Shown one piece after another: positions 40,079 to 60,920 of a stretch of DNA of 64,000 nucleotides. The notes below the pieces were generated by a model. That model did not search any database and was not told the origin of the DNA. It saw only the letters and a list, made by a program, of their open reading frames with translations. The DNA is from Thermococcus sp. (GTDB taxonomy: Archaea; Methanobacteriota_B; Thermococci; Thermococcales; Thermococcaceae), in contig NZ_JAMOQU010000098.1 in the NCBI RefSeq assembly GCF_027063845.1, positions 1 to 64,000 on the forward strand, written 5' to 3'. The translations under genes and the position numbers were made by a program. How positions within the stretch are numbered: position 1 is the stretch's first letter; every line of letters begins with the position of its first letter.

Positions 40079-40130
40079 ATTGGCCCGTAAAAGGCCGTGT
40101 TGGGTTTCAGTGATTTCAACGGTGACACCG

Positions 40131-40652
40131 ATGCCAGGCGGAAGCTGGGAAAAGATAATCTCAATGACGAAGGATGGAATCAAGAGTATAGGCATGATTA
40201 AGCGAAAAGCCAAGCGCGGGAAAAAGATAGCCCTTCTCATTGATGGACCGAACATCCTGAGGAAGGAGTTTGGCATAAAGCTCGAGGACATCGTTGACGT
40301 TCTCGAAAGCATCGGGGACATCCGCGTTGCGAAGGTCATCCTCAACCAGTACGCCCCCCAGGGGCTCATAGAGGCGGTCTCGAACCAGGGGTTCGAGGCG
40401 GTTGTCGTTTCCGGCGAGACCGGGGTAAAGCTTGCCGTTGAGGCCATGCGCGAGATTTACAACCCCAACATAGATGTAATCGCCATCGCGACGCGGAACG
40501 CGGAGTTTCTGCCGGTTATCCTTAAGGCCAAGGAGAAGGGGAAGGAAACGGTAGTCATCGGCGTCGAGCCCGGCTTTTCGGTTGCCCTCAAGCACGCGGC
40601 CGATTACACAATAGTTCTTGAGCCCAAGAGGGAGGGGAGGGAAGAGGAGTGA
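40131..40652 (+). CDS. NYN-domain (TIGR00288-like) protein 1
   Basis: The protein of about 173 residues has the NYN/PIN-like fold of the LabA/TIGR00288 group: the first acidic motif is [14 protein letters not shown], then NQYAPQG, and the second acidic cluster is [16 protein letters not shown]. The usual catalytic-site Asp there (A-T-R-D-x-D/E) is Asn in this copy (TRNAEF). ATG 40131 follows GGTGACACC; upstream ATGs lack such a site. The neighbouring copy has the intact TRDADF. RNase activity is possible for the family, unproven here. Confidence 0.85.
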
Positions 40653-41152
40653 AAGAGAGCTTAATCAGGGTTTTCAGGCGTGAAAAGGAGCACCATGAAA
40701 AGGAACATCCTGGGCCAGAGGAGATAAGCGGTAAGAGCATCGGGCTCATAATAGACGGGCCGAACATCCTGAGGAAGGAGTTCGGAATAAAGCTCGAAGA
40801 CATAGTCGAGGCCCTTGAAAGGCTCGGTCGGATAAGGGTCGCGAAGGTCGTCCTGAACCAGTACGCTCCCCAGGGACTCATTGAGGCGGTCGTCAACCAA
40901 GGGCTTGAGCCGGTTATAGTAGCCGGTGACACCGACGTGAGGATAGCGATAGAGGCCATGGAGCTCATCTACAACTCCGATGTTGACGTTATAGCTCTGG
41001 CCACAAGGGACGCGGATTTTCTGCCCATAATCCAGGAGGCGAAGCGGAAGGGGAAGGAAACAATAGTCATAGGCACCCAACCCGGCTTTTCTGTGGCCCT
41101 TCAAAACGCGGCAGACTACGTCATCAAAATGGTTAGCAAGGTAGAGGAGTGA
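40649..41152 (+). CDS. NYN-domain (TIGR00288-like) protein 2
   Basis: This 167-residue tandem paralogue of the preceding gene overlaps it by four bases (GTGA). It carries the full acidic set [12 protein letters not shown] and [13 protein letters not shown], so unlike copy 1 it keeps the Asp expected at the metal site. The N-terminal 35 residues are charged (His/Glu/Lys rich) and differ from copy 1. A heterodimer of an active and an altered subunit is an attractive inference. Confidence 0.86.
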
Positions 41153-42548: not shown

Positions 42549-43073
42549 ATGAAGTACTTCGTCGTTGTTTCATACGATGACGATGCCGAGCGAAAGCGCG
42601 TTGATTACCTGCTCTCCAAGTGGGCGGAAAGGGCGGACGTTGAGAAGCCCAGGGGAATGACTTTCATAATCGAAACAGAACAGGAGAAAGAGTTCTTCGA
42701 GGAGCTGTTCTCCAGGATAGAGGGCAACCCTTCAGAGAAAGTCAGGATTTACCGCGTAACCGAGGAATGGCCCGAACTCAGGGAGCGGAGCGCGACGAGG
42801 GAATACCTGCTCGCGGAGGAAGAGGGCTTCGTTCGAAGGTTTCTAGCGTACCTGTGCTCCAAGCTCGGAGGAACGTTCAGTCCAGGAGAAGAAACTTGCG
42901 AGGTCTACACAAGGAAAGGAAGGGGTGTAATCCAGTTTTCCCTTAGAGGAACACCGAGGGGAACCGTTGTCAGGGTCACGGTCTCGGGCTACGGCGAGGT
43001 CGTTGAGTACCTCCTTTCGCGTGTGGATGAAGAGCTAAAACCTCTGGCGGGTGATTCCTATGGGACTCTTTGA
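42549..43073 (+). CDS. Uncharacterised protein, first gene of the kinase/ESCRT-like operon
   Basis: The 174-residue soluble alpha/beta protein starts with a strand pattern (KYFVVVSYDDDAERKRVDYLL) and later has a beta-rich segment (RGVIQFSLRGTPRGTVVRVTVSGYGEVVEYLL). It has no transmembrane helix and no family that I recognise. It overlaps the next gene by 14 bases, so it is translationally linked to the coiled-coil protein. It may be a cytosolic accessory or scaffold of the module; this is only positional inference. Confidence 0.65.
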   Translation: MKYFVVVSYDDDAERKRVDYLLSKWAERADVEKPRGMTFIIETEQEKEFFEELFSRIEGNPSEKVRIYRVTEEWPELRERSATREYLLAEEEGFVRRFLAYLCSKLGGTFSPGEETCEVYTRKGRGVIQFSLRGTPRGTVVRVTVSGYGEVVEYLLSRVDEELKPLAGDSYGTL

Positions 43074-44907
43074 GGAGGGAGACGCGAACTGCGTTAAGAC
43101 ACTCCTCCGCCCCGCTGAGCGCGTTCTGAGGCTCGGAACCGACGTTTGGCGGGAGAGCTACGGAACCCGGGCAGACCTCTGGGGAAGAATCGTCGAAGCC
43201 TACAACCGTTACCAGGAAGGCGAGTGCGGGGACTTTCTGCGCGACCTCGACAGACGCTTCAGGGCCAAGTTTGAGGGAGCCCTTGCGTTGCTCGCCTGGT
43301 CCTTTGAGAGGAACGGAGAAGACTTCGAACCAGCTAAAAAGAGGTTCACCCCCGAGGAGCTGACCGCAATAGAGAGGCTCTTCCGCTACAACGTCTTCGA
43401 GATTTACTCTAAGGACGACGTCATGAAGCTGATAATGCACAGGGACAACGAAGTTCTCTCACTCCTAAGGGAGTACTACTCCTTTGACAGATGGCTCCAG
43501 GAGTTCCTTCAGAGCCCAAGGCACGGCCTTGCCCTCAGGGACTTCCTGAAATCGACGTGGGACTCGTACAAGGAGAAGATAAACCTCGCGATAGCCGAAG
43601 CCACCGCACGTTTCGACTGGTTCAGAGACTTCCTCGAAGAGGCCAAAAAGGAAACAGAAGCCGTTGAGAGGATTTACAGGAAGAAGCTCGACGAGAAGGA
43701 GAAGGAAGTTGAGAAACTCAAGAAAGCGATGGAGCTCATCCGCGAGCGCTGGTACGAGGAGATAGAGAAGGCAAAAGCAGAAATCGAGTCCGCCAAGAAA
43801 GAGGAAATAGAGGCCCTCCGGAGGAAAAACGAAGAGCTCAGAAGGCGCTTTGAGGAGGAAAAGGCCAAGCTCATCGAGGAAATCGCCAGAATGAAGGACG
43901 AGGAGATGAAAGCCAGACTCGAAGAGGAGCTCAGGAAGGCCGAGGAAAGAATGAAGGCAGAGGTCAGGGCCCTTGAGGAGAGGCTGAGGAGACGGGAGCT
44001 TGAGTTAAGGCAGAGGGAAATGGAGCTCAGGAGGAGAGAGCTTGAGCTGTCCAAGGCAGAAGAGGAAGTCCGGAAACAAATAGAGGAAGCCATGAAGATT
44101 GTCGAGAAAGCGGAGAAGGGCTCACGCTTTATCAGGAGCGATGAAGCGAGGATAATGGAGATGAACTTCGCCGGCAGGATTAGGAGCAAGCTGAGCGGCG
44201 AGCTGAAACTCCTCGGAAAGACCTTCAAGGTCGAGTCCGTTGAGGAGAGGGAAACCTTTGACCGCTCCAAGTACGCTGGAAAGCTCGACGAGGTAGCTCT
44301 CAAGAACGTTCCAACCAACGTCGTTATCGAAGCAACGCTGAAGGAGAAGAAGCTCCTCGGAAAGAAGGAGAACATAATCCTGAGGGCAGTTTACCTCTCA
44401 AGGCCAGAGCGCTACGCGGAGTACGGCTTTGATACCGACCCTGTCGAGCTTGCCGAGCTGAACGCGCTCCTCGACGACGCGAGGAGAGAAGAAAGGAGAA
44501 CCGTCCTGCTCGTTGCATCACCAACCGGTTTCGAGAAGAGGATTCTCAGCTACGTTGCCTCCGATGACTTCCACAGGAACTTCGTGGCCGATAGGGTCTC
44601 TCTGCTCCTCCTCGACCTCGGTTCGGGTGAGATGATTCACAACCCCAACGACCCCTACGCGAAGGCCTTTGCCCCGCTCCTCAGGCTGGAGTTCGACGAA
44701 GAACTGCTTGAGAAGGCCAGGAGGTTCCTTCTCAACAGGCTAACCTATAAGCACTACGTCCGCTTTGACGAGGCCATCAGCGAACTCGACCTGCCGGTTG
44801 AAATCGTGAGAAAAGCCTTCCTGTCCCTCGGGAAGGAGGGCTACGTTGCCAAGTATGTGGAGGGCGTTGGATACGTCCTCGTTTCGAAGGAGTTTGGAGG
44901 TGAATGA
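43060..44907 (+). CDS. Large coiled-coil protein with C-terminal winged-helix-like end
   Basis: This protein of about 615 residues has three parts. Residues 1-190 form a helical domain (FLRDLDRRFRAKFEGALALLAWSF and following). Residues about 190-355 form a continuous charged coiled coil rich in E, K and R (RRRELELRQREMELRRRE). Residues 360-615 are globular, with strands such as RTVLLVASPTGF and a final segment (YKHYVRFDEAISELDLPVEIVRKAFLSL) that looks like a winged helix. ESCRT systems also use winged-helix and coiled-coil adaptors, so an adaptor role is conceivable. ATG 43060 is preferred to GTG 43051. It could equally be a kinase substrate or scaffold. Confidence 0.7.
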   Translation: MGLFEEGDANCVKTLLRPAERVLRLGTDVWRESYGTRADLWGRIVEAYNRYQEGECGDFLRDLDRRFRAKFEGALALLAWSFERNGEDFEPAKKRFTPEELTAIERLFRYNVFEIYSKDDVMKLIMHRDNEVLSLLREYYSFDRWLQEFLQSPRHGLALRDFLKSTWDSYKEKINLAIAEATARFDWFRDFLEEAKKETEAVERIYRKKLDEKEKEVEKLKKAMELIRERWYEEIEKAKAEIESAKKEEIEALRRKNEELRRRFEEEKAKLIEEIARMKDEEMKARLEEELRKAEERMKAEVRALEERLRRRELELRQREMELRRRELELSKAEEEVRKQIEEAMKIVEKAEKGSRFIRSDEARIMEMNFAGRIRSKLSGELKLLGKTFKVESVEERETFDRSKYAGKLDEVALKNVPTNVVIEATLKEKKLLGKKENIILRAVYLSRPERYAEYGFDTDPVELAELNALLDDARREERRTVLLVASPTGFEKRILSYVASDDFHRNFVADRVSLLLLDLGSGEMIHNPNDPYAKAFAPLLRLEFDEELLEKARRFLLNRLTYKHYVRFDEAISELDLPVEIVRKAFLSLGKEGYVAKYVEGVGYVLVSKEFGGE

Positions 44908-44908
44908 G

Positions 44909-45493
44909 ATGGGAATACGCGACGTTTTTGGAAGGAAGAGCACCGTCGAGAAGCTCTCACTTAGAGAGCTCCAAGAGGAGGAAATTAGGCTCAGGAACAG
45001 GCTTGAGAGGCTGAAGAAGGACATAAACGCCATAGAGAAGAAGAAAAAGGAGCTCTTCCAGCAGGGCATAGGCGCGGACAAGCTCAAGAAGAAGATGCTC
45101 GCTCAAGAAATCAAAAGCCTCGACATGGAGGAGAAGCTCAAGCTCAAGGAGTTCACGACGGCCCAGAAGCAGTACACCCTCATAAAGAACCTAATCGTCG
45201 TCAAGAAGTACGAGAAGGAGCTCCGCGAGGTGGGGGTCTGGGACAAGCTCAAGAAAGTCGAGCCCGGGGAGCTTGAGAAGGCCCTCATACGAATAAACCT
45301 CGACGGCAAGGAGTTCAACGAGATGGTGGAGAGCCTCAACAGGGTCTTTGAGATGGAGATAGCCGAGTTCGAGGAGGGCGAAGACGAGACCGAGAGGGAG
45401 CTCTTTGAGGCCTGGGCCCAGGTCGAGAGCGGTGAAGCGGAGCCGGACGAGGTTGTGGAGAAAGTTCTGAAGGCTGAGACGGAGGAGGAGTGA
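44909..45493 (+). CDS. ESCRT-III/CdvB-like helical protein, copy 1
   Basis: This 194-residue, almost purely helical protein has the charge layout of ESCRT-III subunits: a short N-terminal segment MGIRDVFGRK, a long basic helical hairpin (about 15-75; KKDINAIEKKKKELF, then LKKKMLAQEIKSL), a second helix pair, and an acidic C-terminal region (from about 145; EFEEGEDETERELFEAW). It is paralogous to the next gene. Its ATG has GGAGGTG upstream and lies one base after the previous stop. The adjacent MIT-bearing Vps4-type ATPase supports the assignment. Alternatively it is an unrelated coiled-coil protein. Confidence 0.7.
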   Translation: MGIRDVFGRKSTVEKLSLRELQEEEIRLRNRLERLKKDINAIEKKKKELFQQGIGADKLKKKMLAQEIKSLDMEEKLKLKEFTTAQKQYTLIKNLIVVKKYEKELREVGVWDKLKKVEPGELEKALIRINLDGKEFNEMVESLNRVFEMEIAEFEEGEDETERELFEAWAQVESGEAEPDEVVEKVLKAETEEE

Positions 45494-45494
45494 C

Positions 45495-46076
45495 ATGGGG
45501 CTCCTCTCAAAGTTTTTTGGACCGAAGAACCCGCTCGACGTTCCCCTCAAGGACCTGCTTGAGAACCAGATGAAGCTCGAAGCCCAGATTGAGAAAATCG
45601 AGCGCGAGCTCAGAGCGATAGAGGCCGAGATAGCGGAGCTCTTTGAGAGGGCAAAGAGAGCCAAGAGCAGGAGCGAGGAGCTCACGATAGCGACAAAGAT
45701 AAAGACCCTCAACAAGCGCAAGAAGAACCTCCAGGCGACGCACGCCCAGCTGAACAAGCAACTGATGCTCGTCAGCAACCTGCTCATAATCAAGGAGAAC
45801 GAGGAGCTCCTGAAGGGAACGCCAACCTGGGAGATGCTCAGGAAAATGTCTCCGAAGGAGCTTGAGGAGAAACTAATCGAGATGGAGCTCGACGCCAGGA
45901 ACTTCAACGAGAGCCTTGAGAAAATGCTCGGCATGACCGACAGAACGATAGGGGTTGAGGACTTTGAGGCCGACGAGGAGCTTGAGGAGATACTGAGCAC
46001 AATAAGGGCGGTCAAAGAGGGCGAGCTTGAACCGGAAGAGGCCACGAAGAAGGTCGTCGAGGAGGAGAAGGAGTGA
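45495..46076 (+). CDS. ESCRT-III/CdvB-like helical protein, copy 2
   Basis: The 193-residue protein starts MGLLSKFFGPKN, close to the amphipathic N-termini of eukaryotic CHMP/Snf7 proteins (MGLFxxxFG type). A basic helical hairpin follows (IEKIERELRAIEAEIAELF; IATKIKTLNKRKKNLQA, about residues 25-85), then LVSNLLIIKENEELL, and an acidic tail with EELEEILSTIRAVK, which resembles a type 1 MIT-interacting helix (leucines/isoleucines every 3-4 residues plus a terminal basic residue). It is paralogous to copy 1. I regard it as the best ESCRT-III candidate of the operon. Confidence 0.72.
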   Translation: MGLLSKFFGPKNPLDVPLKDLLENQMKLEAQIEKIERELRAIEAEIAELFERAKRAKSRSEELTIATKIKTLNKRKKNLQATHAQLNKQLMLVSNLLIIKENEELLKGTPTWEMLRKMSPKELEEKLIEMELDARNFNESLEKMLGMTDRTIGVEDFEADEELEEILSTIRAVKEGELEPEEATKKVVEEEKE

Positions 46077-47696
46077 ATGCCGAGAAGGAGCCTTGAAGAG
46101 GACTTCGTTCGGAGGCTCATCATCTCGATTTTCCTGATTGCCCTCCTTCACGGCTTCGGGTTACTCATATCGCTCTTCATATTCCTTCCGTGGATTGAGA
46201 GGTTCCTGAGAGAGACGGGCTCCTCGAAGCCCTATCCCGGGCCCAAACCTGTTCCGAGGCCGGTGCCTGAAAAACCGCACAGAAGGGAGCTGAATACTGG
46301 AAAATCCCTCAGTGAGGGGCTAATCTTTGAAGCGCCGAAAAAGCTAATCCAGGGAGCTGAGGCGCTGATAAAGGTCGGTTTCAGGAACAGGACAGGGAAA
46401 AGCCTTCGCGTCTCAATAGACCTGTCGGAGCTGGCCCTCTACGGAAAGCTGGAGAGGAGGACCCTCGACCTGTACCTCCTCCCTGGCGAGGAGAGGAGCG
46501 AGTACGTGCGCTTCGTGCCCTCGAAGGTTGGGAAGCACGCGCTTACCGTCCGCGTCCGCTCCGGGCCGTTTATGGGGAAGAAGGCCATTGAAATCGAGAT
46601 TGCCGGGGAAAAAGCCGAGGGCAACGGGTTGGAGGCCCTTCTGTCGAGATACGAGAGGGTCGAGCTAATTGGAGAGGGCGGCTTTGGCAGGGTCTACCGC
46701 GCCCTGAGGGACGGCCGGTGGGTCGCGCTCAAGGTCCCCCACGTCCTCAACGAGAGAACCGGAAAGCTCTTCCTGCGCGAGGTTTCCATATGGCGCGAGC
46801 TGAGGCACGGCAACATAGTGAAGCTCCACGACGCAAATCTGACGCCTTACCCCTACATAGAGATGGAGCTCTGCGACCGGTCGCTCGAAGACCTCGAGAA
46901 GCCCCTCCCGGCGGAGCGCGTGGCCGAGATAGCTTTTGAGGTAGCGGAAGGCCTGAAGTACGCCCATTCGAAGGGTATAATCCACCGCGACCTGAAGCCG
47001 AGCAACGTCCTCCTCAAGGGCTCCAAGCCGAAGATAAGCGACTGGGGGCTTGCGAAGGTTCTGTTCGAGAGCGGAACCACGACGGTAACGGCGATGACGC
47101 CCTACTACGCCTCGCCCGAGCAGATAAGTCCGTCGCGCTTCGGAGGGGTTGACGAGAGAACCGACGTATGGCAACTGGGCGTTCTCATGTACGAGCTCGC
47201 GACGGGGAAGAGGCCCTTCGAGGGAAGCGACTTCGTCGAGGTTGCCGGGAGGATAATCATGGAGGAGCCGCAGAGGCCGAGCGAGCTCAATCCGGAGGCG
47301 GAGCCCCTCGACGGGATAATCCTCCGCTGTCTGAGCAAGGAGAAGGAGAGGCGCTACGGAAGCGTTGAAGAGCTCCAGCGGGATTTGTCGGGAATCCTCG
47401 GCGGGAAGTACCGGGAAGAGCTCAAGAAGAGCGTCGAGCCATCGCGCTCGGCCTACTATGCGGGCCAGCTGTTCCTCCTCCACCTGAGGCTCGGGGACGC
47501 GAAGGAGGCCCTGAAGTACGCGAGGGACCTGCTGAGGTACGCGAGGGGGAGGGAGAGGGAAGAGCTGGAGAAGCTCATCGAACAGATTGAGCTGAGGGTT
47601 GAGGAGGGGCTCCCCGTTCCGAGGGAGCTCGTTGAGAAGGGTGAGGTTGTTGTTCACGGGGTTGGAGGCAATCCGTCCAATTATTCTCATTCTTGA
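46077..47696 (+). CDS. Membrane-anchored Ser/Thr protein kinase 1 (Ig-like domain, TPR-like tail)
   Basis: The 539-residue protein has one transmembrane helix (about 13-41), a Pro-rich linker, a beta-sandwich domain (80-180), a Hanks-type kinase domain (about 190-440) and a helical TPR-like tail (450-525). Kinase elements: GEGGFGRVY loop (199-207), Lys219 in VALKV, Glu235, HRDLKPSN (303-310) and SPEQ. The DFG motif is DWG (322-324). With a single helix, both sandwich and kinase should be cytosolic. ATG 46077 directly follows the previous stop, coupling it to the ESCRT-III-like pair. Confidence 0.9.
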   Translation: MPRRSLEEDFVRRLIISIFLIALLHGFGLLISLFIFLPWIERFLRETGSSKPYPGPKPVPRPVPEKPHRRELNTGKSLSEGLIFEAPKKLIQGAEALIKVGFRNRTGKSLRVSIDLSELALYGKLERRTLDLYLLPGEERSEYVRFVPSKVGKHALTVRVRSGPFMGKKAIEIEIAGEKAEGNGLEALLSRYERVELIGEGGFGRVYRALRDGRWVALKVPHVLNERTGKLFLREVSIWRELRHGNIVKLHDANLTPYPYIEMELCDRSLEDLEKPLPAERVAEIAFEVAEGLKYAHSKGIIHRDLKPSNVLLKGSKPKISDWGLAKVLFESGTTTVTAMTPYYASPEQISPSRFGGVDERTDVWQLGVLMYELATGKRPFEGSDFVEVAGRIIMEEPQRPSELNPEAEPLDGIILRCLSKEKERRYGSVEELQRDLSGILGGKYREELKKSVEPSRSAYYAGQLFLLHLRLGDAKEALKYARDLLRYARGREREELEKLIEQIELRVEEGLPVPRELVEKGEVVVHGVGGNPSNYSHS

Positions 47697-47710
47697 AGGA
47701 GGTGTATCGA

Positions 47711-48874
47711 ATGCCCGTTGATTTGACAGGTCCGCTTATGGCGTCCTTCAGAAGGGCCAAGAAGGCCTATGAAAAGGCCCTGGCCGAGGGCGATTACGAG
47801 ACCGCCAGGAGAAAGGCCCTTGAGTGCGCGAGGATTCTCAAACAGCTCGCCAAGCACGACCCCTACGGTAGGAGTTCCTACCTGGCAAAGGCAAGAAAGT
47901 GGGAAGACCTTGCCAAGGGTCTCGAAGAAGGAAGGATTCCGAAGAGGGAGGTCAAGGTAACCTCAGAGGGAAGCGACGAGGATGAGCTAAGAACCTACGT
48001 CATGGGACTCATGGCAAGGTCAAACGTCAAATGGAGCGACATTGGAGGCCTTGAGGACGTTAAACGACTCCTCATGGAAACGGTGGTCGTCTCGGCACTC
48101 CAGAGGCCGGAAGCGGTTCAGCCCTGGAAGGGTATTCTCCTCTTCGGCCCCCCGGGAACCGGAAAGACCCTGCTCGCTTCTGCTGCCGCCGGAAGTTTAA
48201 ACGCAACCTTCTTCTCGGTCAAAGCCAGCAACGTCCTGAGCAAGTACTTCGGCGAGTCCGCGAAGATAATCTCGGCCCTCTACGAGGTTGCCCGCGAGAA
48301 GGCCCCGAGCATAGTCTTCGTGGATGAGGTAGATGCCCTCACAACCCGGCGCTCCGGCGAGACGAGCGAGGCCAGCAGGAGGATGCTCTCGACGTTTCTA
48401 GCGGAGCTTGACGGCTTTCAGGATAAAGGTAGCGACGTGCTCGTTCTAACCCTCGCGGCAACCAACACCCCCTGGGATTTGGACGAGGCGGTTCTCTCGC
48501 GCTTCCCGAGGAGGATTTACGTCCCTCTACCGGACGAGAAGGCCACGAAGGAGATAATCAAAATCAACACGCGCGGGCTCGACATAAGCAGGCTCGACTT
48601 GGATGCAATAGCTGAGGAGAGCGTCAGGCGCCTGTACTCGGGAAGGGACATCAAGAACCTCTGCCAGGAGGCGGTATGGAACATGATTCGCGAGGAGAAC
48701 AGAGACCTCCACAAGCTCGCCGAGCTCCCATACGAGGAGCTCAAAAAGAGGTCGCTCAGGACAAGACCGCTTGAGATGAGGGACTTCGAGGAGGCCTTCA
48801 AGAAAATTAGGAGCCCGCTGACGAGGCGAGATGTCGAGAGGTACGAGAAGTGGGCGGAGGAGTTTGGGGGATGA
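47711..48874 (+). CDS. Vps4/CdvC-like AAA ATPase with MIT-like N-terminus
   Basis: The 387-residue single-ring AAA ATPase has Walker A GPPGTGKT (146-153), Walker B IVFVDE (201-206), sensor-1 TN (251-252), the arginine finger region SRFPRRIYVPLPD (Vps4 has RRFxxRIYIPLP) and a C-terminal helix DVERYEKWAEEFGG, very like the last helix of Vps4. Residues 8-75 form a three-helix segment (AKKAYEKALAEGDYETARR; YLAKARKWEDLAKGL) with the pattern of MIT domains. No Vps4 beta-domain insert is seen. ATG 47711 follows GGAGGTG; TTG 47693 is unlikely. It should remodel the ESCRT-III-like proteins of the operon. Confidence 0.85.
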   Translation: MPVDLTGPLMASFRRAKKAYEKALAEGDYETARRKALECARILKQLAKHDPYGRSSYLAKARKWEDLAKGLEEGRIPKREVKVTSEGSDEDELRTYVMGLMARSNVKWSDIGGLEDVKRLLMETVVVSALQRPEAVQPWKGILLFGPPGTGKTLLASAAAGSLNATFFSVKASNVLSKYFGESAKIISALYEVAREKAPSIVFVDEVDALTTRRSGETSEASRRMLSTFLAELDGFQDKGSDVLVLTLAATNTPWDLDEAVLSRFPRRIYVPLPDEKATKEIIKINTRGLDISRLDLDAIAEESVRRLYSGRDIKNLCQEAVWNMIREENRDLHKLAELPYEELKKRSLRTRPLEMRDFEEAFKKIRSPLTRRDVERYEKWAEEFGG

Positions 48875-51198
48875 GACGACTTACGGTCGTGATGGTCTTT
48901 CTTCTCCTCTTAAAGCCTGCCCTGGCCGTTACAATCGGGATAGACCTCTCCCACGGCGAGAACCCAAACGGCCTCACACCAGTGACCTATGAGAATCAGA
49001 CGCTCGCCCCGGGAATCCTCGAAACGCTCAGCCAGTACACCTTCGTCTACTTTGGAAACGAGAGCTATCAGGAAGAGCTGGGAATCCGCTGGCTGGGCAG
49101 GTCAATAACTCCGGGCCTGCTGGAAAACGTTGACGTCCTTATAATCGGCCAGCCGACTGCCAACTTCTCAAACACCGAAATCTTGGCCATAAGGGAGTGG
49201 TTCTACTCCGGAGGAAAAGTTCTCTGGGTCGCCGGCGATTCCGACTATGGAAACGGCGTAAAGACTCAGAGGATAGTGAACGGCCTGCTTGAAGCCCTCG
49301 GGGCACCCCTGCGCCTTGACCTCTGCTCCGTTGAAGACCCGGTGAGCAACGCGGGAAGGTCCTACCGTATCATAGCCTACAACAGGCCAAGCAACGATAC
49401 CCCTTACAGGTTGCTCTTAATTCAAGGGGTAACCCATGGTGTCCTCGCGCACGGGCCCGGGCCGGTGGCACTCTTCGTGAACGGCACTTGGAAGCCCCTG
49501 AGGGATGGAAACAAGCCTTCGGGGGTTTACATAATCCTCCGGACGAGCAAAGATGCCCAAATCGTTGAGAACAATGACCCCCTTGGGAAAGCGTACAGGG
49601 CGGGAGAAACCGGGGAATTCCCAATAGCCGCGGCATGGGTGTGGAGTTCAGGCAACAAACGGAGTGTTCTGATAGTCAGCGGTGAGACGCCCGTTGGAGG
49701 CTACACCCCCATGTGGGTCAGCCAGTACTACGGTATCAAGCTCGACGGGCCAACCTTTGTCTCGAACGTAATCCACTGGGGCGTTACCGTTGCCTCACGT
49801 TCCCCGGAAAACCGGAGCTCACCATCAACAACGTTCACGACGACCGCATCTCCAAAGAACAGCCAGATTGTCCAGCCGTCGAGTTCCCGGCCTAAATCAA
49901 CAACGGGTTTAGACGACGTAGAAAAGAGCTCGAAGGTACCAGTCCTCCCTCTCGCGCTCGGAGGCATTCTGGTGCTCCTTGTCATTGGGCTTGCCCTCCT
50001 GAAGGGCAGGAGCGGGGGTGAAAAAAGGGCCAACCTCAACGTCCCCGGATTTCCGCCGGAGCTCTTGGACAGGTACGAGCCTCTTGAGTTCCTCGGGGAG
50101 GGCGGTTTTGCCAAGGTCTTCAAGGTCAAACGCAAAAAGGACGGCAAAACAGTCGCCCTAAAAATCCCGCACCTAACTGAGAAGTCCAGGAAATCCTTCA
50201 CCAGAGAAGTTCGGGCCTGGAGCCTGCTGGAGCATCCGAACATAGTAAAGCTCTACCGTGCGGAGGAGAAGCCGATACCATACCTCGAGATGGAGTTCGT
50301 TGAGGGTGCTGAGGTTGATGGAAAGCTCGTTAGAACGCTCGAGGAACTACCAAAGCCCGTTGATGAGGAAACTGCCCTAGAACTCATCAGAGGCATCGCA
50401 GAGGGATTGAAGCACGCGCACTCGAAGGGCATAATCCACAGGGACTTAAAGCCCGGAAACATCCTCCTGAAGGCCAACTTAACGCCAAAGATAACCGATT
50501 GGGGATTAGCCAAAATCGGAACACATTCAACGACCACCACCTCGGGGGTAACGGTTCTCTACGCCGCGCCGGAGCAACTTGACCCTGAAACCTACGGGCG
50601 CACCGACCACAGGACGGACGTCTACCAGCTCGGCCTAATCTTCTATGAACTCCTGACAGGAAAACTGCCCTACGGGGGGAACAGCCCCGCAAGTGTAATC
50701 GCAAAGATTCTCAACCCAGAAACCAAGCCAAAACCGCCGAGTGCCGTTAGGCCAGAGCTTGCGAAGTACGACGGGCTCTTCGAGAAGTTGCTGGCGAAGA
50801 GGAAGGAAGACCGCTACGGAAGCGTTGAGGAGTTCCTGGAGGACCTCAAGCTCTTGAGGAGGCTTGAAGGAGAAAGGACGGACCTCAAGGGCCAGATTGA
50901 GGAGCTCAAGAAAACCATCCAAGTAACGACGGACCGGTCGGAGGTTCAAAGGCTCGTCAGGAAACTCGTTGAAGGACTCGGAAGGAACGCGGTCCTTTCG
51001 GCGAGGCTCAACGACAAGGCAGGCCTGATTAGTGCGCTTGAGGAGCTCAAGGAGTTCACACGGGAAGAAAGGGGAGAGGTTGAGCGGGCGATTGAAACCG
51101 TCGAGCTCCTCCTAAGGGAGGGTCTGCCGATTTCCCCGGAACTCGTTGAGAGGGTGGAGGTTCTCGTTGACAGGATTAAACGGGAGGTGGAGAGATGA
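48871..51198 (+). CDS. Receptor Ser/Thr kinase 2 with GIFT-like extracellular sensor
   Basis: The 775-residue protein has a signal peptide (cleaved after PALA, about residue 19), an extracellular domain (20-310) homologous to the secreted protein at 20460-21557, a Ser/Thr-rich stalk, a transmembrane helix (about 356-379) and a cytosolic kinase with GEGGFAKVF (409-417), Lys431, HRDLKPGN (523-530) and DWG (543-545), then a helical tail. It is the membrane-tethered, signalling version of a surface protein. Its start overlaps the ATPase stop (ATGA). Kinase-coding DNA is nearly identical in blocks to that of kinase 3. Confidence 0.92.
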   Translation: MRRLTVVMVFLLLLKPALAVTIGIDLSHGENPNGLTPVTYENQTLAPGILETLSQYTFVYFGNESYQEELGIRWLGRSITPGLLENVDVLIIGQPTANFSNTEILAIREWFYSGGKVLWVAGDSDYGNGVKTQRIVNGLLEALGAPLRLDLCSVEDPVSNAGRSYRIIAYNRPSNDTPYRLLLIQGVTHGVLAHGPGPVALFVNGTWKPLRDGNKPSGVYIILRTSKDAQIVENNDPLGKAYRAGETGEFPIAAAWVWSSGNKRSVLIVSGETPVGGYTPMWVSQYYGIKLDGPTFVSNVIHWGVTVASRSPENRSSPSTTFTTTASPKNSQIVQPSSSRPKSTTGLDDVEKSSKVPVLPLALGGILVLLVIGLALLKGRSGGEKRANLNVPGFPPELLDRYEPLEFLGEGGFAKVFKVKRKKDGKTVALKIPHLTEKSRKSFTREVRAWSLLEHPNIVKLYRAEEKPIPYLEMEFVEGAEVDGKLVRTLEELPKPVDEETALELIRGIAEGLKHAHSKGIIHRDLKPGNILLKANLTPKITDWGLAKIGTHSTTTTSGVTVLYAAPEQLDPETYGRTDHRTDVYQLGLIFYELLTGKLPYGGNSPASVIAKILNPETKPKPPSAVRPELAKYDGLFEKLLAKRKEDRYGSVEEFLEDLKLLRRLEGERTDLKGQIEELKKTIQVTTDRSEVQRLVRKLVEGLGRNAVLSARLNDKAGLISALEELKEFTREERGEVERAIETVELLLREGLPISPELVERVEVLVDRIKREVER
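50059..50522 (+). repeat. Kinase-domain DNA shared with 55127-55590 (copy 1)
   Basis: Three blocks, 50059-50169, 50284-50367 and 50443-50522, are identical or nearly so (one mismatch noted in the first) to the co-linear blocks in the next kinase gene, including third codon positions, while the sequence between them diverges. Both regions are 464 bases long. This points to recent gene conversion between the kinase genes. Confidence 0.85.
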
Positions 51199-51959
51199 GG
51201 CTAATACTGCCCGAAAGCCCACACATGGAGTCCAGCGGGGCCGGAACTGACTTCGTTTACGGGATAACCCACGTTGGGGGACGGAAACACAACGAGGACG
51301 GCCTGCTCATCATGAAGCTCCCCGACGGCTACCTGCTCGCAGTCGCGGACGGACTGGGCGGTCACAACGCCGGGGAAGTCGCTTCTAGGCTGGCCCTGGA
51401 AACCCTTGCGGGGGTCTTTGAAAGGGAGTACGTTGAAGGCCTTGAAGAAGACCTTCTCGCGATTCTCCTGAAGAAGGCCCACGAGGTTGCCCACTCCATT
51501 GTTAGAGAACGGGCAAGGGGACCACTTGAGGGAATGGGGACGACCCTCGTCTCGGCTGTAGTTAGGAGAAGGACCGTTATCGTTGCCAACACCGGCGACA
51601 GCAGGGCGTACCTGGTTTCCGGGGGGAAACTCGTCGCGAGGACGCTCGACCACTCACCACTTCAGGAGCTCGTTCTCATAGGGCAGGTCAGCGAGGAGGA
51701 GGTCATGTACCACCCGCTCAGGAACAGGGTGAGCTCAGCCATTGGAAGGCACCTAATGGTTGACCTCTACCGCTGGGAAGCCGGACCCGGCCACATCCTC
51801 CTTCTCAGCACGGACGGTCTTCACGACTATGTCTCAAAGGAAGAAATCCTGCGGGCGCTCATCCCTGGGAAAACGGCACGTGACCTCGCCAAAACCCTCA
51901 TGGAAAGGGCCCTGACTGTCACTGAAGACAACGTAACGGTGGTGGTGTGGAGATGGTGA
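51195..51959 (+). CDS. PP2C-family Ser/Thr protein phosphatase
   Basis: The 254-residue protein has all PP2C metal-site motifs: KHNEDG (31-36), VADGLGGH (50-57), GMGTTLVSAVV, ANTGDSRAYL, LLLSTDGLHD and EDNVTVVV near the end. It is cytosolic (no signal or membrane helix) and removes phosphate from Ser/Thr, so it is the natural antagonist of the three kinases in this operon. It overlaps the kinase genes on both sides by four and seven bases. An in-frame ATG at 51225 is an alternative start. Confidence 0.94.
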   Translation: MRLILPESPHMESSGAGTDFVYGITHVGGRKHNEDGLLIMKLPDGYLLAVADGLGGHNAGEVASRLALETLAGVFEREYVEGLEEDLLAILLKKAHEVAHSIVRERARGPLEGMGTTLVSAVVRRRTVIVANTGDSRAYLVSGGKLVARTLDHSPLQELVLIGQVSEEEVMYHPLRNRVSSAIGRHLMVDLYRWEAGPGHILLLSTDGLHDYVSKEEILRALIPGKTARDLAKTLMERALTVTEDNVTVVVWRW

Positions 51960-54900
51960 ATGCAAAGGCTATGCTCGTTATCGTATTGCTATTATCTTCC
52001 CTCTTTCCGCTAAGTCCAACCCTTGCTCAACCTATCCAGGGGGATGAGCTTAAAATCGTGTACCTTGCTGCCCAGGGTAGTCTCTTTATGGGTGTCTTCA
52101 ACCCGTCCCCGAGCGGAATGACCGACGTTTACACCCACCGCATCTGGTACTTCCTCAACGACCCGCCCTACGTGATGGGACCCGACGGAAGCTATCACAG
52201 CTACCGCTGTCAGCTTGTCAGTGTCAATTACAACGTTCAGGTTCCGGACGATGCCGTAATCTGGAACGACACCCTCGGCGAGTGGACCTCCCCATACGCC
52301 GGCAGAACAGCCAAGAGTGCCGTCACCTGGAAGTGCGGTCTCGGAACCTGGGTTGACGGTCAGAAGATAACCCTCGCCGACTACTTATTCGCCTACGCAA
52401 TGGACTGGGAATGGAGCCATGAAGGGGGAGCGTACTACGACCAGAGCTGGAGCGCCAGCGTGGCCGGCAAGCTCCAAGGAATCTACGGTCTCGAGGTGAA
52501 AGCCGTCACATCTGATTACGTTGAATTCACGGTCTACCAGGATTATGCAGTTCCATACAGCAGGTGGGCCACCGCCGTTAACTACGTTCCATACCCTGGG
52601 TTCCCCTGGCAACTCTATTATGCAACCTCCGAGCTCGTGGCAAGGGGATACGGCGGCAAGATGTTCTCGTGGAGCTCGAATCCCACCAATGGGTACCAGC
52701 TCAACCTGATAGACGAGGAACAGATGGAGTACATTTCGGGCATGCTCTCAAGGCTAAAGGATGAAGCTCCTATTCCGGGCCCCCTGTCGGAGCTTTCAAG
52801 CGTTCTCGGAAAATGGGGTCTGGACTACTACCACTCCGGCCTTCAGGATGCAGAAAGCGGGTACTCGGCCCTGATAGGCTGGATTTCAAACCACAAAAAT
52901 GCCCTCGTGACCAATGGACCGTACTACGTTGATGACTACGACGCTGAGGATATGAAGCTCGTCCTCAAGCTCGCGAACAACAGAAGGGTCGGGTTCCCGG
53001 ACACCGTTAACGGTAAGACCCTTCCCTGGGAGCCGTACTGGAGAGAGATTGACGTTTACGGCGTTCTCAACGACTATACGGCTATTCTCTCCGTTGCTAA
53101 AGGCGAGTACGACCTGTACTGGTTCACCAGGCCGTATAGTACTTTGTCCAGTGTGGTTCAGGAATACGGCAAGAACATCAACCTGATTAAGGCTATCTTC
53201 ACCTGGTGGAGCATCAACCTCAACCTTGCAGGAGACTCCACGACAGGCCTCGTGGAAACCTCCAACGGAACCTGCTTTAACCCGTTCGCGCTCCGTGAGG
53301 TCAGGTTCGCCCTTAACTGGCTCATCAACAGGCAGTACATCGTCAGCCAGGTCCTCCAGGGAAGCGGTGCTCCAATCTACGGCCCAAATCCAACGGGCCA
53401 AGTTAACGCACACGAGAATTACGTAACCGTTGCGAAGGCTATGGGAATAACCTCTCAGGGTGACGAGGCCTACGCCATCAAGATGATTGACGAGGCCATG
53501 ACTAGGGCATCCTCGGAACTCTCAGACTTAGGACACACCCTTGAGAAAAGGGACGGTGTCTGGTACTTCGACGGTCAGCCGGTTACCGTGAAGATTATTG
53601 CTCGTATCGAGGACGAGAGACTTGATGAGGGCAAGTACGTTGCTCAGGTACTCCAGAAGGCCGGCTTTAAGGTTGACCTCCTCCAGTGGCAGAGGAGCCA
53701 GGCCAGCAGGATGGTTTACAGTAGCGACCCCAAGGAGCTTCAGTGGCACGTTTATACAGAGGGTTGGGTCGTCAGCGGAATTCAAGACATCACGGACCTC
53801 GCCTGGGACTTCTGGTACTACGGCAGTTACGTCGCTCCAAATTGGGGTTCCAACTACCACAACCCAGTAACGGTCAGAGACGTTCTCAACGTTATCGCCA
53901 GCGGTGACGTTGCCAGGTTCATCAGCGAACTAAACCTCAAGTACTACAACACTCCGAATAAGCTCAAGCCTCTCCTCGACTGGACAGGCTACGACCTTGC
54001 TAACTTACTCGCCTACGCTAAGTGGACAAAAAACGGATGGACAGTGAGCGTATGGAGCCTTGACCAGTTCTGGGACCTCTACAAGCTCGCCTACGCACTC
54101 CACCTCTACAACGCCCCCAGAATCTACACGGCCGAGGTGTGGAACTTCTACATCACCAACAAAAGGGTGAAAGTTGGAATCCCCGACCCAGTTACAGGAC
54201 TTGGAAGCTTCCTTGCCGTCCGTTCGCTTGAGCCCGCTGAAACATCGGTGTCAGGGGGAACAACAGGAACAGAAACAACGACTTCAGCATCTCCACAGGT
54301 GCAGAATGATAGGGGAACAATCGAAGTAGTCTCCACACCTGCAGGCGCTGAGGTTTACGTTGACGGAGGCTACCAGGGAATAGCACCAATAAACGTCAGT
54401 GTATCCCCCGGAACTCACAGGGTTCAAGTGAAGATGCCTGGCTATGAGGAGTACTCGACGACGGTCACGGTAGATGCCGGAAAAACCGTTGTTCTAAACG
54501 TAAACCTGGAACCCAAATCCGGAACCCTCGTAGTTGACTCAACACCCTCGGGAGCCAGCGTTTATGTGGACGGTACCTACCGCGGGACTACTCCCCTGAC
54601 CGTTGAGCTACACCCGGGCCAGCACACGATAAACGTGACTCTCGAAGGCTACAAGCCATACTTGGCAACGGTCAATGTTCCTCCAGGTGAAACCGTAAAG
54701 ATAACGGCGAAGCTTGAGAAGAAAATCGCGACGGGGACGGTTTGGATAAATTCTCAGCCCACAGGAGCGGACGTCTACGTTGACGGCACGTGGCGTGGGA
54801 CAACACCGCTGACGCTCACCCTTCCACCGGGTACCCACACGATAGAAATCCGGAAGGAGGGCTATCAACCGACCAGAAAAACGGTTGAGGTTGCCCCAGG

Positions 54901-56290
54901 AGAAGAAAAGAAAATAACCCTAACCCTCGCGGTGGTGACCTCTCAGGATACCCAACCGAAAACAACCAGCGAATCCACGCCGGCCAACGCAGTTCCAAGG
55001 AAGGCCATCGCAGTGGTTCTGGCCGTGTTCATCCTTGTTGGGGCAGTGCTCCTCCTCAAGCGCTCGCGCTCTGGAGGAAAGACCCAAAATGAGCCCTCCA
55101 AGGGTTCAATTGAGGGCTTCCCGGCCGAGCTCTTGGACAGGTACGAGCCCCTTGAGTTCCTCGGGGAGGGCGGTTTTGCCAAGGTCTTCAAGGTCAAACG
55201 CAAAAAGGACGGCAAAACAGTCGCCCTAAAAATCCCGAGGATTGACGAGAAAACCAGCAAGACCTTCCTCCGTGAGGTTTCAACGTGGTTCCAGCTCAAC
55301 CACCCCAACGTCGTCAAGCTCTACGACGCGGACATTTTACCCGTTCCCCACCTCGAGATGGAGTTCGTTGAGGGTGCTGAGGTTGATGGAAAGCTCGTTA
55401 GAACGCTCGAGGAACTACCAAAGCCCGTTGATGAGAAAACCGCACTGGGACTCATAAAGGGCATTGCGGAAGGCCTAAAACATGCCCACTCAAAAGGCAT
55501 TGTTCACCGCGACTTAAAGCCCGGAAACATCCTCCTGAAGGCCAACTTAACGCCAAAGATAACCGATTGGGGATTAGCCAAAATCGGAACGATGAGCTCG
55601 GGAAGGAGCGTGATGGGCTACACCCCCCTCTACGCCGCGCCGGAGCACCTGATGCCGAGCAAGTTCGGAAACACCGACCACCGGACAGACGTATGGCAGT
55701 TGGGGACGATTTTCTACGAGCTACTGACCGGCAGGGTTCCGTTTGAGGGCTACACATACGAGGAGGTCTTTGGCAAGATAACCGACGAGAACTACCGCCA
55801 TAAGCCGCCCTCCGATTTCAACCCGGCACTGGCAAAGTACGATGGGCTCTTCGAGAAGTTGCTGGCGAAGAGGAAGGAGGACCGCTACAGAAGCGTTGAG
55901 GAGTTTCTGGAAGACCTCGAGAAGCTCAGGGAGAGCGAGATAAGGAAGCGGGAGCTCGAGTTTCGGGTTGAGGAGCTGAAGAAAACCCTCGCAAGAAGCG
56001 TAGAGGCTCTGAAGAGGAGCAAGACCGCCGAGGAAATCAGGGAGAACAGCAGGCTCGTAGTCCAAACTCTCTCGAAGCTCGCTTTAGCCTACGCGGAGCT
56101 CAACAGGAAGGCAGAGCTTCTCAACACCCTGAGCGACCTGAAATTCTATACAACCCAGCACAGAGAGGAGCTTGGGAGGGCAATTGAAGCCCTTGAGCTC
56201 ATGATTAAAGAAAACCTGCCCGTAAGAGAGGACTTCGTTGAAAGGCTCAAGGTGCTCCTTCACGAAATAGAGCGTGAAAACGGGGTGTGA
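51953..56290 (+). CDS. Receptor Ser/Thr kinase 3: oligopeptide-binding domain, three PEGA repeats, kinase
   Basis: The protein of about 1445 residues has a signal peptide (SPTLAQ, about residue 24), a complete SBP_bac_5-type oligopeptide-binding domain (25-760; DAVIWNDTLGEWTSP, TLADYLFAYAMDWEW, ALNWLINRQYIVSQVLQGSG), a Thr-rich linker, three PEGA repeats (about 789-995; PAGAEVYVDG, PSGASVYVDG, PTGADVYVDG), a transmembrane helix (about 1019-1039) and a kinase with GEGGFAKVF (from 1071), HRDLKPGN (Asp 1187) and DWG, plus a helical tail. An importer-type ligand-binding protein is thus wired to a kinase, with no transporter genes nearby. ATG 51953 with GGTGGTG is preferred to GTG 51947. Confidence 0.93.
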   Translation: MVNAKAMLVIVLLLSSLFPLSPTLAQPIQGDELKIVYLAAQGSLFMGVFNPSPSGMTDVYTHRIWYFLNDPPYVMGPDGSYHSYRCQLVSVNYNVQVPDDAVIWNDTLGEWTSPYAGRTAKSAVTWKCGLGTWVDGQKITLADYLFAYAMDWEWSHEGGAYYDQSWSASVAGKLQGIYGLEVKAVTSDYVEFTVYQDYAVPYSRWATAVNYVPYPGFPWQLYYATSELVARGYGGKMFSWSSNPTNGYQLNLIDEEQMEYISGMLSRLKDEAPIPGPLSELSSVLGKWGLDYYHSGLQDAESGYSALIGWISNHKNALVTNGPYYVDDYDAEDMKLVLKLANNRRVGFPDTVNGKTLPWEPYWREIDVYGVLNDYTAILSVAKGEYDLYWFTRPYSTLSSVVQEYGKNINLIKAIFTWWSINLNLAGDSTTGLVETSNGTCFNPFALREVRFALNWLINRQYIVSQVLQGSGAPIYGPNPTGQVNAHENYVTVAKAMGITSQGDEAYAIKMIDEAMTRASSELSDLGHTLEKRDGVWYFDGQPVTVKIIARIEDERLDEGKYVAQVLQKAGFKVDLLQWQRSQASRMVYSSDPKELQWHVYTEGWVVSGIQDITDLAWDFWYYGSYVAPNWGSNYHNPVTVRDVLNVIASGDVARFISELNLKYYNTPNKLKPLLDWTGYDLANLLAYAKWTKNGWTVSVWSLDQFWDLYKLAYALHLYNAPRIYTAEVWNFYITNKRVKVGIPDPVTGLGSFLAVRSLEPAETSVSGGTTGTETTTSASPQVQNDRGTIEVVSTPAGAEVYVDGGYQGIAPINVSVSPGTHRVQVKMPGYEEYSTTVTVDAGKTVVLNVNLEPKSGTLVVDSTPSGASVYVDGTYRGTTPLTVELHPGQHTINVTLEGYKPYLATVNVPPGETVKITAKLEKKIATGTVWINSQPTGADVYVDGTWRGTTPLTLTLPPGTHTIEIRKEGYQPTRKTVEVAPGEEKKITLTLAVVTSQDTQPKTTSESTPANAVPRKAIAVVLAVFILVGAVLLLKRSRSGGKTQNEPSKGSIEGFPAELLDRYEPLEFLGEGGFAKVFKVKRKKDGKTVALKIPRIDEKTSKTFLREVSTWFQLNHPNVVKLYDADILPVPHLEMEFVEGAEVDGKLVRTLEELPKPVDEKTALGLIKGIAEGLKHAHSKGIVHRDLKPGNILLKANLTPKITDWGLAKIGTMSSGRSVMGYTPLYAAPEHLMPSKFGNTDHRTDVWQLGTIFYELLTGRVPFEGYTYEEVFGKITDENYRHKPPSDFNPALAKYDGLFEKLLAKRKEDRYRSVEEFLEDLEKLRESEIRKRELEFRVEELKKTLARSVEALKRSKTAEEIRENSRLVVQTLSKLALAYAELNRKAELLNTLSDLKFYTTQHREELGRAIEALELMIKENLPVREDFVERLKVLLHEIERENGV
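55127..55590 (+). repeat. Kinase-domain DNA shared with 50059-50522 (copy 2)
   Basis: The co-linear blocks 55127-55237, 55352-55435 and 55511-55590 match kinase 2 almost base for base. The first block covers the P-loop to the catalytic Lys, the third the HRD-to-DWG catalytic segment. Substrate-facing stretches between them differ. Confidence 0.85.
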
Positions 56291-56293
56291 ACC

Positions 56294-56842
56294 ATGAAGT
56301 TCTGGAAATCCAAAGAGGAGAAAGAGATAGAAAGGAGGATACGGGCCAAAAAGGCCAAGATGGCCCTGAAACAGTACATAAACAACCTCGAAGCCTTAAA
56401 GCGCAGGGTCTTCCTCCAGGGGAAGGAAGCGGCGAAGCTCGGCGACGAGGAACTGCTGAGGAGAAGCGCCGTAAAGTACCTTGTCCTTGAGAATCGAATT
56501 AAGGAGGCAAAGCGCCTTCTCCTCCTCATGGAGGAAGCAGAAATCCAGAGGGAACTCGTTAAGGTCTCGGCCGAGTTCCTCCGCTTCAGCAGGGACATCG
56601 TTGAGAGCATTGCAGAGGGGCCTGGAGCAGAGGACGTTGCCAAGATGCAGGTCGAGTTCGAGAAGGCGATGGCGAAGGTTGAAACCCTCGGCGAGGCTCT
56701 GAGTTCCATGCTCGACGTAACGAGCGAAAGCATCCTGAGCGGAAACTTTGACGAAAAAACGATAAAAGAAGCAGAGGCGTTCTTCGACGTGGAACCCTCT
56801 GGAGAAAGGCTCAAGGAGATTGAGAAGGCTATGAGGGCTTAG
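56294..56842 (+). CDS. ESCRT-III/CdvB-like helical protein, divergent third member
   Basis: The 182-residue all-helical protein has a strongly basic N-terminal half (MKFWKSKEEKEIERRIRAKK; YINNLEALKRRVFLQG; RIKEAKRLLLL) and an acidic second half (EDVAKMQVEFEKAM; EKTIKEAEAFFDVE). It ends in ERLKEIEKAMRA, an amphipathic helix at the extreme C-terminus where ESCRT-III proteins carry MIT-interacting motifs. It has the length and charge asymmetry of the two ESCRT-III-like proteins but little direct identity. ATG 56294 lies three bases after the kinase stop, so it is the last gene of the operon. Confidence 0.65.
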   Translation: MKFWKSKEEKEIERRIRAKKAKMALKQYINNLEALKRRVFLQGKEAAKLGDEELLRRSAVKYLVLENRIKEAKRLLLLMEEAEIQRELVKVSAEFLRFSRDIVESIAEGPGAEDVAKMQVEFEKAMAKVETLGEALSSMLDVTSESILSGNFDEKTIKEAEAFFDVEPSGERLKEIEKAMRA

Positions 56843-60119: not shown

Positions 60120-60920
60120 TTGTGGGCCATTTACAAAAAGCAGTTCGCAGAATGGCTCTCTGACCAAATAACGCCAGTAGTGAAGAAAGACTACCTTAAA
60201 GCGCTCGAAGTTTTCTTTGGTCGGCACTCATTAAAGACGTACGAGGACCTAGAAAAGGCCCTCAAGGCGGAGAACTACAACGACAGAGTAGTGAAAGGCC
60301 TCCGCAAGTTCACAACGTTCCTCGAAGAAAAGCACGTGATTGACTACCACCTCGCAGACGACTGGAGAAGAATCATGAAAATCAAGCGGAAGTCAGGAGT
60401 CCGGGCCATTTTCGTGACTGACGAGGAAATCAGAGAAGCATACAAAGCCATTAAAGAGCGCGGTGAAGAAAAGCTCACGCTCTTTAAGCTTTTGGTGTTC
60501 TCAGGAATAAGACTGACTCACGCGGTCCAGCTGGTGAACACCTTCAACTGGCAGAACGTTTACATCGTGAACGAGAAGGTCGCCAGATACCCACTGTTCG
60601 CATTCTCCCGCGGCAAAAAGAGGGGCTTTTGGGCCTATGCCCCAAAGGAGTTCTACGAGCTCCTTGAGCCGATGAATGTCAACTATGTGAGCGCCAAGGA
60701 TTGGGTGAGTCATGGAAAGGTTTCTGCGAACACAATCCGGAAGTGGCATTACACTTTTCTCATTCGTCAGGGCGTTCCTGCCGACATCGCTGACTTCATC
60801 CAGGGACGTGCAAGCCAGCGCGTTGGGGCGACTCACTACCTGAACAAGACCCTCCTCGCCGACGAGGCGTATTCTCGGATTGTGGATGAGCTAAAGAAGG
60901 TTCTGGAGGGTTCAAAATGA
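60120..60920 (+). CDS. SSV-type tyrosine integrase, C-terminal part int(C)
   Basis: The 266-residue fragment contains a SAM-like/core-binding region and the catalytic domain with the active-site Arg in SGIRLTHAVQL, a later Arg/Lys/His cluster RKWHYTFLIRQG and the nucleophile region GRASQRVGATHYL. The reading frame is open back through the tRNA sequence to 59994 without an ATG, as expected when integration within the integrase gene separates int(N) from int(C). The TTG at 60120 is only a nominal start. The fragment is probably not expressed as an active enzyme until excision restores the gene. Confidence 0.88.
   Translation: MWAIYKKQFAEWLSDQITPVVKKDYLKALEVFFGRHSLKTYEDLEKALKAENYNDRVVKGLRKFTTFLEEKHVIDYHLADDWRRIMKIKRKSGVRAIFVTDEEIREAYKAIKERGEEKLTLFKLLVFSGIRLTHAVQLVNTFNWQNVYIVNEKVARYPLFAFSRGKKRGFWAYAPKEFYELLEPMNVNYVSAKDWVSHGKVSANTIRKWHYTFLIRQGVPADIADFIQGRASQRVGATHYLNKTLLADEAYSRIVDELKKVLEGSK

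Follow-up and report, generated by a model that had tools for sequence, protein, structure and literature searches.

A predicted solute-binding receptor kinase encoded within an ESCRT operon of Thermococcus

What is an oligopeptide-binding protein doing at the outer end of a Ser/Thr kinase, and why does the gene for it lie among genes for membrane remodelling? The question is raised by an open reading frame at 51947–56290 on the forward strand of a 64,000-nucleotide stretch of Thermococcus sp. DNA (GCF_027063845.1, contig NZ_JAMOQU010000098.1, positions 1–64,000, forward strand; hereafter the window, its genome being G000). The predicted product, 1447 residues long, carries an OppA-type binding domain outside the cell and a kinase within, and its gene belongs to an operon of the endosomal sorting complexes required for transport (ESCRT). 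Our reading is that the protein is a receptor kinase through which a solute outside the cell, probably a peptide, acts on the ESCRT machinery, and to this reading as a whole we assign a probability of roughly 0.6. Its sensing part is firmer: that the protein is a sensor kinase is, judged from its sequence, likely. That the ESCRT machinery is the target draws on the operon, on co-transfer and on a published association, and is on balance favoured. Membrane kinases of ESCRT loci are already known; what is new is the use of binding proteins as ectodomains and the exchangeability of the sensors.

A kinase with an OppA-type ectodomain

Translation may start at GTG 51947 or at ATG 51953. A signal-like N-terminal segment (51947–52027; hydropathy, residues 8–26) precedes an ectodomain of the SBP_bac_5 family (52028–54286; residues 28–780), three PEGA repeats that would form an extracellular stalk (54332–54976; residues 796–1010), the only internal transmembrane helix (55001–55057; residues 1019–1037, hydropathy 2.88), a Ser/Thr protein kinase domain (55142–55891; residues 1066–1315) and a helical tail common to kinases of ESCRT loci (55895–56287). 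Pfam recognises the binding domain (SBP_bac_5, E = 1.4e-17, 64.3 bits against a cut-off of 32.4), the PEGA repeats (E = 5.5e-62, three stretches) and the kinase (Pkinase, E = 2.1e-45). An earlier interpretation made from the DNA alone (the sequence-only reading) had named the binding domain, the PEGA repeats, the membrane helix and the kinase, and domain search together with hydropathy confirmed every one of them at the place it had been given. That reading also took the binding domain to be complete, which holds: by sequence, PDB 7fi3 (ABC-type dipeptide/oligopeptide system, 732 residues) aligns with it from end to end (E = 1.9e-131). Its size, put at about 735 residues, is corrected to about 750.

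The kinase domain has all the expected motifs (GEGGF, ALK, HRDLKP, DWG in place of DFG, and APE), and the nearest solved kinase sequences are those of PknB. The tail, which an alignment of 28 such tails shows to be shared, is modelled by AlphaFold2 as five helices with a mean predicted local distance difference test score (pLDDT) of 94.8; a fold search that considered a PCI-type fold for it gave no significant match.

A fusion of this kind might be an artefact of assembly or annotation in which two genes have been joined, and assembly error was the refutation that the sequence-only reading feared. It is excluded because the same continuous frame occurs in other genomes. G018 and G025, both Thermococcaceae, encode the same fusion in frames of 1455 and 1454 residues, with 97% and 89% identity, respectively, over the binding domain; two of the fusion-bearing genomes are assembled in one or two contigs. 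A further OppA–kinase fusion, also in a continuous frame, is found in G067 (binding domain 57% identical to that of the receptor), and a piece at a contig edge in G042 carries OppA, four PEGA repeats and the kinase. With intact frames in G018, G025 and G067, and with nothing found in its favour, an artefact has a negligible probability. Outside the Thermococcaceae no fusion was found, the binding domain giving one weak match (E<=1e-30) in the 21 genomes taken from elsewhere in the phylum. Searches with PF00496 across the order fail to single out fusions, and the open-access literature yielded no publication on fusions of solute-binding proteins to Ser/Thr kinases.

Is the captured domain still under selection as a binding protein? 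Ratios of nonsynonymous to synonymous substitution (dN/dS) among the fused orthologues are about 0.16–0.29 for the binding domain, 0.13–0.22 for PEGA and 0.05 for the kinase. Fourteen free OppAs share 317 invariant columns; the fused form retains 275 of these (86.8%), and fused forms overall keep 86–87%. In a leave-one-out control, the most divergent of the free OppAs retains 85.9%. These figures indicate purifying selection on both halves of the protein and no relaxed constraint on the binding domain, and dN/dS among the fused orthologues gives no sign of diversifying selection there. A degenerate binding domain was rejected, both dN/dS and conservation being like those of functional OppA.

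The same genome encodes a free OppA paralogue, 65% identical to the binding domain of the receptor (contig C19; L093:8860-11361). Downstream of its gene come a pair of BPD_transp_1 permease genes and a pair of oligopeptide-type ABC ATPase genes, corresponding to OppB, C, D and F. The free paralogue too has a C-terminal membrane anchor. Sequence comparison thus indicates that the receptor binding domain descends from a transporter OppA. In a tree of 30 binding domains the fusions of G000, G018 and G025 form one clade (100/100), whereas the G067 fusion groups with the free OppAs L024 and L027 (100/100; 76% identity). OppA has therefore been captured at least twice, and a single origin of all OppA–kinase fusions was rejected. 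A Ser/Thr-rich stalk and a DUF7662 domain take the place of PEGA in the G067 fusion.

Nor is capture confined to OppA in its usual form. A kinase of the ESCRT locus of G043 (L112:9294-13100) has a circularly permuted OppA ectodomain, in which the part matching 331–735 of the query comes first (residues 40–451) and that matching 8–312 follows (residues 457–747); the next kinase carries a Bmp/PnrA-type ABC binding protein as its ectodomain (E = 5.5e-54). Binding proteins of ABC importers have been recruited repeatedly by this kinase family. In G018 the best free OppA is only 39% identical and no close one was found; the sensor therefore needs no orthologous importer.

Circularly permuted OppA-like proteins, with the second part of the domain ahead of the first, are widespread in the Thermococcaceae (G086 C1:1478466-1480556, G091 C195:1524-3614, L115:725-4390 and others). 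Related parts are also found in L118 and L113, long proteins with subtilase and NosD/beta-helix domains, respectively.

The ESCRT operon around the receptor

The receptor is the ninth of ten genes that lie on the forward strand (42549–56842) and that overlap or are separated by a few bases throughout. The sequence-only reading was correct that no importer genes are adjacent: the neighbours encode kinases, a PP2C phosphatase, and Vps4-like and ESCRT-III-like proteins. Among the operon genes is one for a Vps4/CdvC-like AAA ATPase (47693–48874; AAA 6.8e-39, Vps4_C 3e-8), which matches the NCBIfam CdvC model over its full length at 7.1e-64, yet under the curated cut-off. Upstream of it are an ESCRT-III-like protein (45495–46076; Snf7 E = 0.0048, under the gathering score) and its paralogue (44909–45493; about 30% identical). 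An alignment of 19 ESCRT-III-like members from these loci gave Snf7 matches for 10 of the 19 (best 2.3e-4), and a profile made from it had CdvB and CdvB2 as its top PDB matches (E about 0.02). Directly downstream of the receptor is a third, divergent ESCRT-III-like helical protein (56294–56842), modelled by AlphaFold2 as a long helical hairpin with three shorter helices (pLDDT 85). In a fold search CdvB (9s9k) had the top probability among the listed matches, 0.93, but with E = 0.19 the match is not significant, and an ESCRT-III fold for this protein is suggestive only.

Immediately before the receptor, and overlapping its start, is the PP2C phosphatase (51195–51959; Pfam 1.2e-16; NCBIfam Stp1 180 bits, below the cut-off of 230). 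It is preceded by a second membrane receptor kinase (48850–51198), whose ectodomain is ABC_transp_aux / GIFT-like by Pfam and whose kinase domain is 64–66% identical to that of the OppA receptor. A third kinase (46077–47696; Pkinase 2e-47) has an N-terminal transmembrane segment by hydropathy (residues 18–36). The operon opens with a 174-residue protein (42549–43073) that is a candidate arCOG08177 by position only and has no Pfam or NCBIfam match, and with a coiled-coil protein (43051–44907) that has no Pfam match; the latter is a candidate arCOG09748, its position and size being as given in PMC10936438, and is kept at the locus in other genomes.

That paper (mBio 2024) already reports euryarchaeal 'Main' ESCRT loci with membrane kinases and phosphatases, and by its description the operon at 42549–56842 is a locus of the 'Main' type. 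An earlier review (PMC10117752) held the Thermococcales to be without ESCRT-III; the present locus argues against that statement. The 'Main' kinases, as portrayed in PMC10936438, resemble the receptor in their setting (Vps4, ESCRT-III, kinase and phosphatase), in their membrane anchor and in having a helical C-terminal domain, which in the 'Main' kinases is of PCI/winged-helix type. They mostly have an N-terminal transmembrane segment and Ig-like repeats, whereas the OppA receptor has a solute-binding domain, three PEGA repeats and one internal transmembrane helix; this difference is not a defining one, because the arrangement is stated there for most members only. PEGA and PQQ appear among the domains in one of its figure legends, and the main text makes no mention of a solute-binding protein ectodomain, a sensor, a lectin or an oligopeptide.

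The sequence-only reading described a sensor that signals by phosphorylation. As a statement about a solute-binding receptor kinase this is well supported; what it missed is the ESCRT operon, the large kinase family in which ectodomains are exchanged, and the likely ESCRT target.

Exchange of ectodomains on a common kinase

Between G000 and G022, homology at the receptor locus ends at 51959 (the end of the PP2C gene) and restarts at 55112, shortly ahead of the kinase domain; the G022 kinase is 94% identical and homology continues at 90% through the downstream genes. Where the receptor has OppA, the ectodomain of the G022 allele is short and of PEGA type. The G050 allele (L127:5943-7904), with a kinase 87% identical, is without a signal or transmembrane segment and has a soluble N-terminal domain without a Pfam match. 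At this locus the kinase stays and the sensor changes.

Part of the locus has also moved between lineages. A tract at 50903–56151 on the forward strand is shared with G018 at 96.8% identity over 5249 bp, against 68–81% in its homologous flanks. Synonymous divergence is 0.03–0.11 inside the tract and 1.4 over the C-terminal tail, where the break lies; the left end of the tract holds what remains of the upstream kinase, scarred by deletion. The PP2C gene lies within the tract (identical at 247 of 255 positions, counting the stop), and phosphatase and receptor have therefore moved together. The 5.2-kb block of PP2C plus receptor is thus the product of a recent horizontal exchange with the G018 lineage.

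About 100 distinct kinase open reading frames of the family were collected, with N-terminal regions from <100 to >1300 residues. According to Pfam, the domains adjoining the same kinase include beta-propellers (PQQ, WD40, Kelch and DUF5122), PEGA, DUF2341, TPR, macro and Bmp, as well as, in G018, three legume-lectin domains. Vps4 of this type (at least 74%) is present in 38 of 94 Thermococcaceae genomes. It is possible that the Thermococcales maintain an exchangeable receptor repertoire on an ESCRT machine, with captured binding proteins, permuted binding proteins, lectins and propellers as ectodomains on a constant kinase chassis and operon. Ectodomains would be swapped within and between genomes by recombination, and external solutes or contacts would directly gate membrane remodelling. 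This wider proposal is tentative, and we rate it at a little under even odds.

Several further proteins deserve separate record. The protein with three legume-lectin-type domains is a family receptor kinase of 1691 residues encoded outside the main cluster (G018 L096:3238-8313). A macro domain (ADP-ribose type) stands between ectodomain and kinase at L005:1115-3745 and L124:13510-16293. PP2C proteins with N-terminal regions of 500–650 residues occur in the same loci (L095:10529-12736, L101:9356-12040 and L107:9093-11684); these are possible receptor phosphatases.

Proposed mechanism and competing explanations

In mechanistic terms the OppA receptor would be a type-I receptor Ser/Thr kinase whose ectodomain can be swapped. 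Its OppA-derived clam-shell domain would bind a solute outside the cell, most likely an oligopeptide, and closure would be transmitted through the PEGA stalk and the single transmembrane helix to the cytosolic kinase, activating it probably as PknB-type kinases are activated, through a changed dimer state. The kinase may phosphorylate products of the operon (the ESCRT-III-like proteins, the coiled-coil protein or Vps4) or its own tail, and the PP2C of the operon would undo this phosphorylation; the outcome would be solute-gated membrane remodelling, for example vesicle budding. We infer the ligand, the role of PEGA as a stalk, activation by closure or dimer change, the substrates and the membrane outcome.

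Several points weigh against this reading. The assignment of ESCRT-III is based on weak matches that stay under the Pfam cut-off, and the fold search with the receptor tail was without significant result. The ligand, kinase activity and substrates of the receptor are predictions from sequence, as is an intact ligand pocket; no paper describing PDB 7fi3 was found in the open-access literature. Finally, an unpublished result cited in PMC10117752 is that disruption of Vps4 homologues in T. kodakarensis, a strain that may or may not carry the locus, left vesicle production unchanged; the membrane outcome may therefore differ from the one proposed.

The same parts can be put to other uses. The binding domain might draw extracellular peptides or partner proteins to the site of ESCRT assembly, with the kinase marking that site: capture, then, rather than the sensing of a concentration. 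Many ectodomains of these loci are propeller- or lectin-like and OppA is the major vesicle protein of Thermococcus (PMC10117752), both of which would suit a cargo receptor; however, every variant keeps a phosphatase paired with a kinase whose motifs are intact, which points to signalling, and the G050 form at the same locus has neither signal peptide nor transmembrane segment. We regard such a role as unlikely. Less likely still is a decoy role in a conflict system: viruses, vesicles or toxins that target OppA would bind the fused copy as bait and so set off a response by kinase and ESCRT. OppA is abundant at the cell surface, and the great variety of ectodomains, the exchange of sensors at a single locus, the horizontal movement of the module and the patchy presence of this Vps4 type (at least 74%; 38 of 94 genomes) would all fit a decoy. 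Yet the binding domain appears to be under purifying selection with no diversifying selection seen, no virus using OppA was found in this analysis, and the exchange is equally well explained by nutrient sensing.

It is very improbable that the tethered domain still feeds the OppBCDF importer while the kinase tunes uptake, even given its 65% identity to the importer-linked OppA of its own genome and the C-terminal membrane anchor that free OppA has too. Importer genes are absent from the neighbourhood, G018 has the fusion yet no close OppA, and in other kinases of these loci that position is taken by permuted OppA, lectins and propellers. The receptor has partial counterparts elsewhere. The archaeal OppA of PDB 7fi3 and the Thermococcus OppA–OppBCDF importers share a complete homologous binding domain with the receptor; unlike theirs, that of the receptor is fused to a kinase on a PEGA stalk with no importer genes nearby. 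The bacterial PknB/PASTA-type kinases have the closest Hanks-type kinase domains, the same type-I topology, membrane-near extracellular repeats and a partner PP2C; their repeats are PASTA, whereas the receptor has PEGA and OppA and scores 191 bits against a cut-off of 450. A binding protein is the extracellular sensor for a kinase in BvgS and EvgS, which are sensor histidine kinases with solute-binding ectodomains, and in the mycobacterial GlnH–GlnX–PknG system. These differ from the receptor in using another family of binding protein with histidine kinases, or separate proteins, and have no link to ESCRT.

Because relatives have different sensors at this position, chemicals outside the cell may govern the reshaping of the membrane. 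If the exchangeable repertoire proposed above is real, ESCRT-driven membrane remodelling in a prokaryote would be under the direct control of solutes or contacts from outside. For the control and role of euryarchaeal ESCRT systems, an operon receptor kinase with a recognisable ligand-binding domain offers an experimental handle; it also shows that signalling receptors can be built by the repeated capture of import proteins on one kinase chassis.

Elsewhere in the window, 40080–40652 and 40649–41152 are a tandem duplicate of a small protein that by eye is NYN/PIN-type nuclease-like. No tRNA was found in the window; an integrase-like open reading frame, by eye a tyrosine recombinase, lies near the ESCRT operon at 60120–60920.
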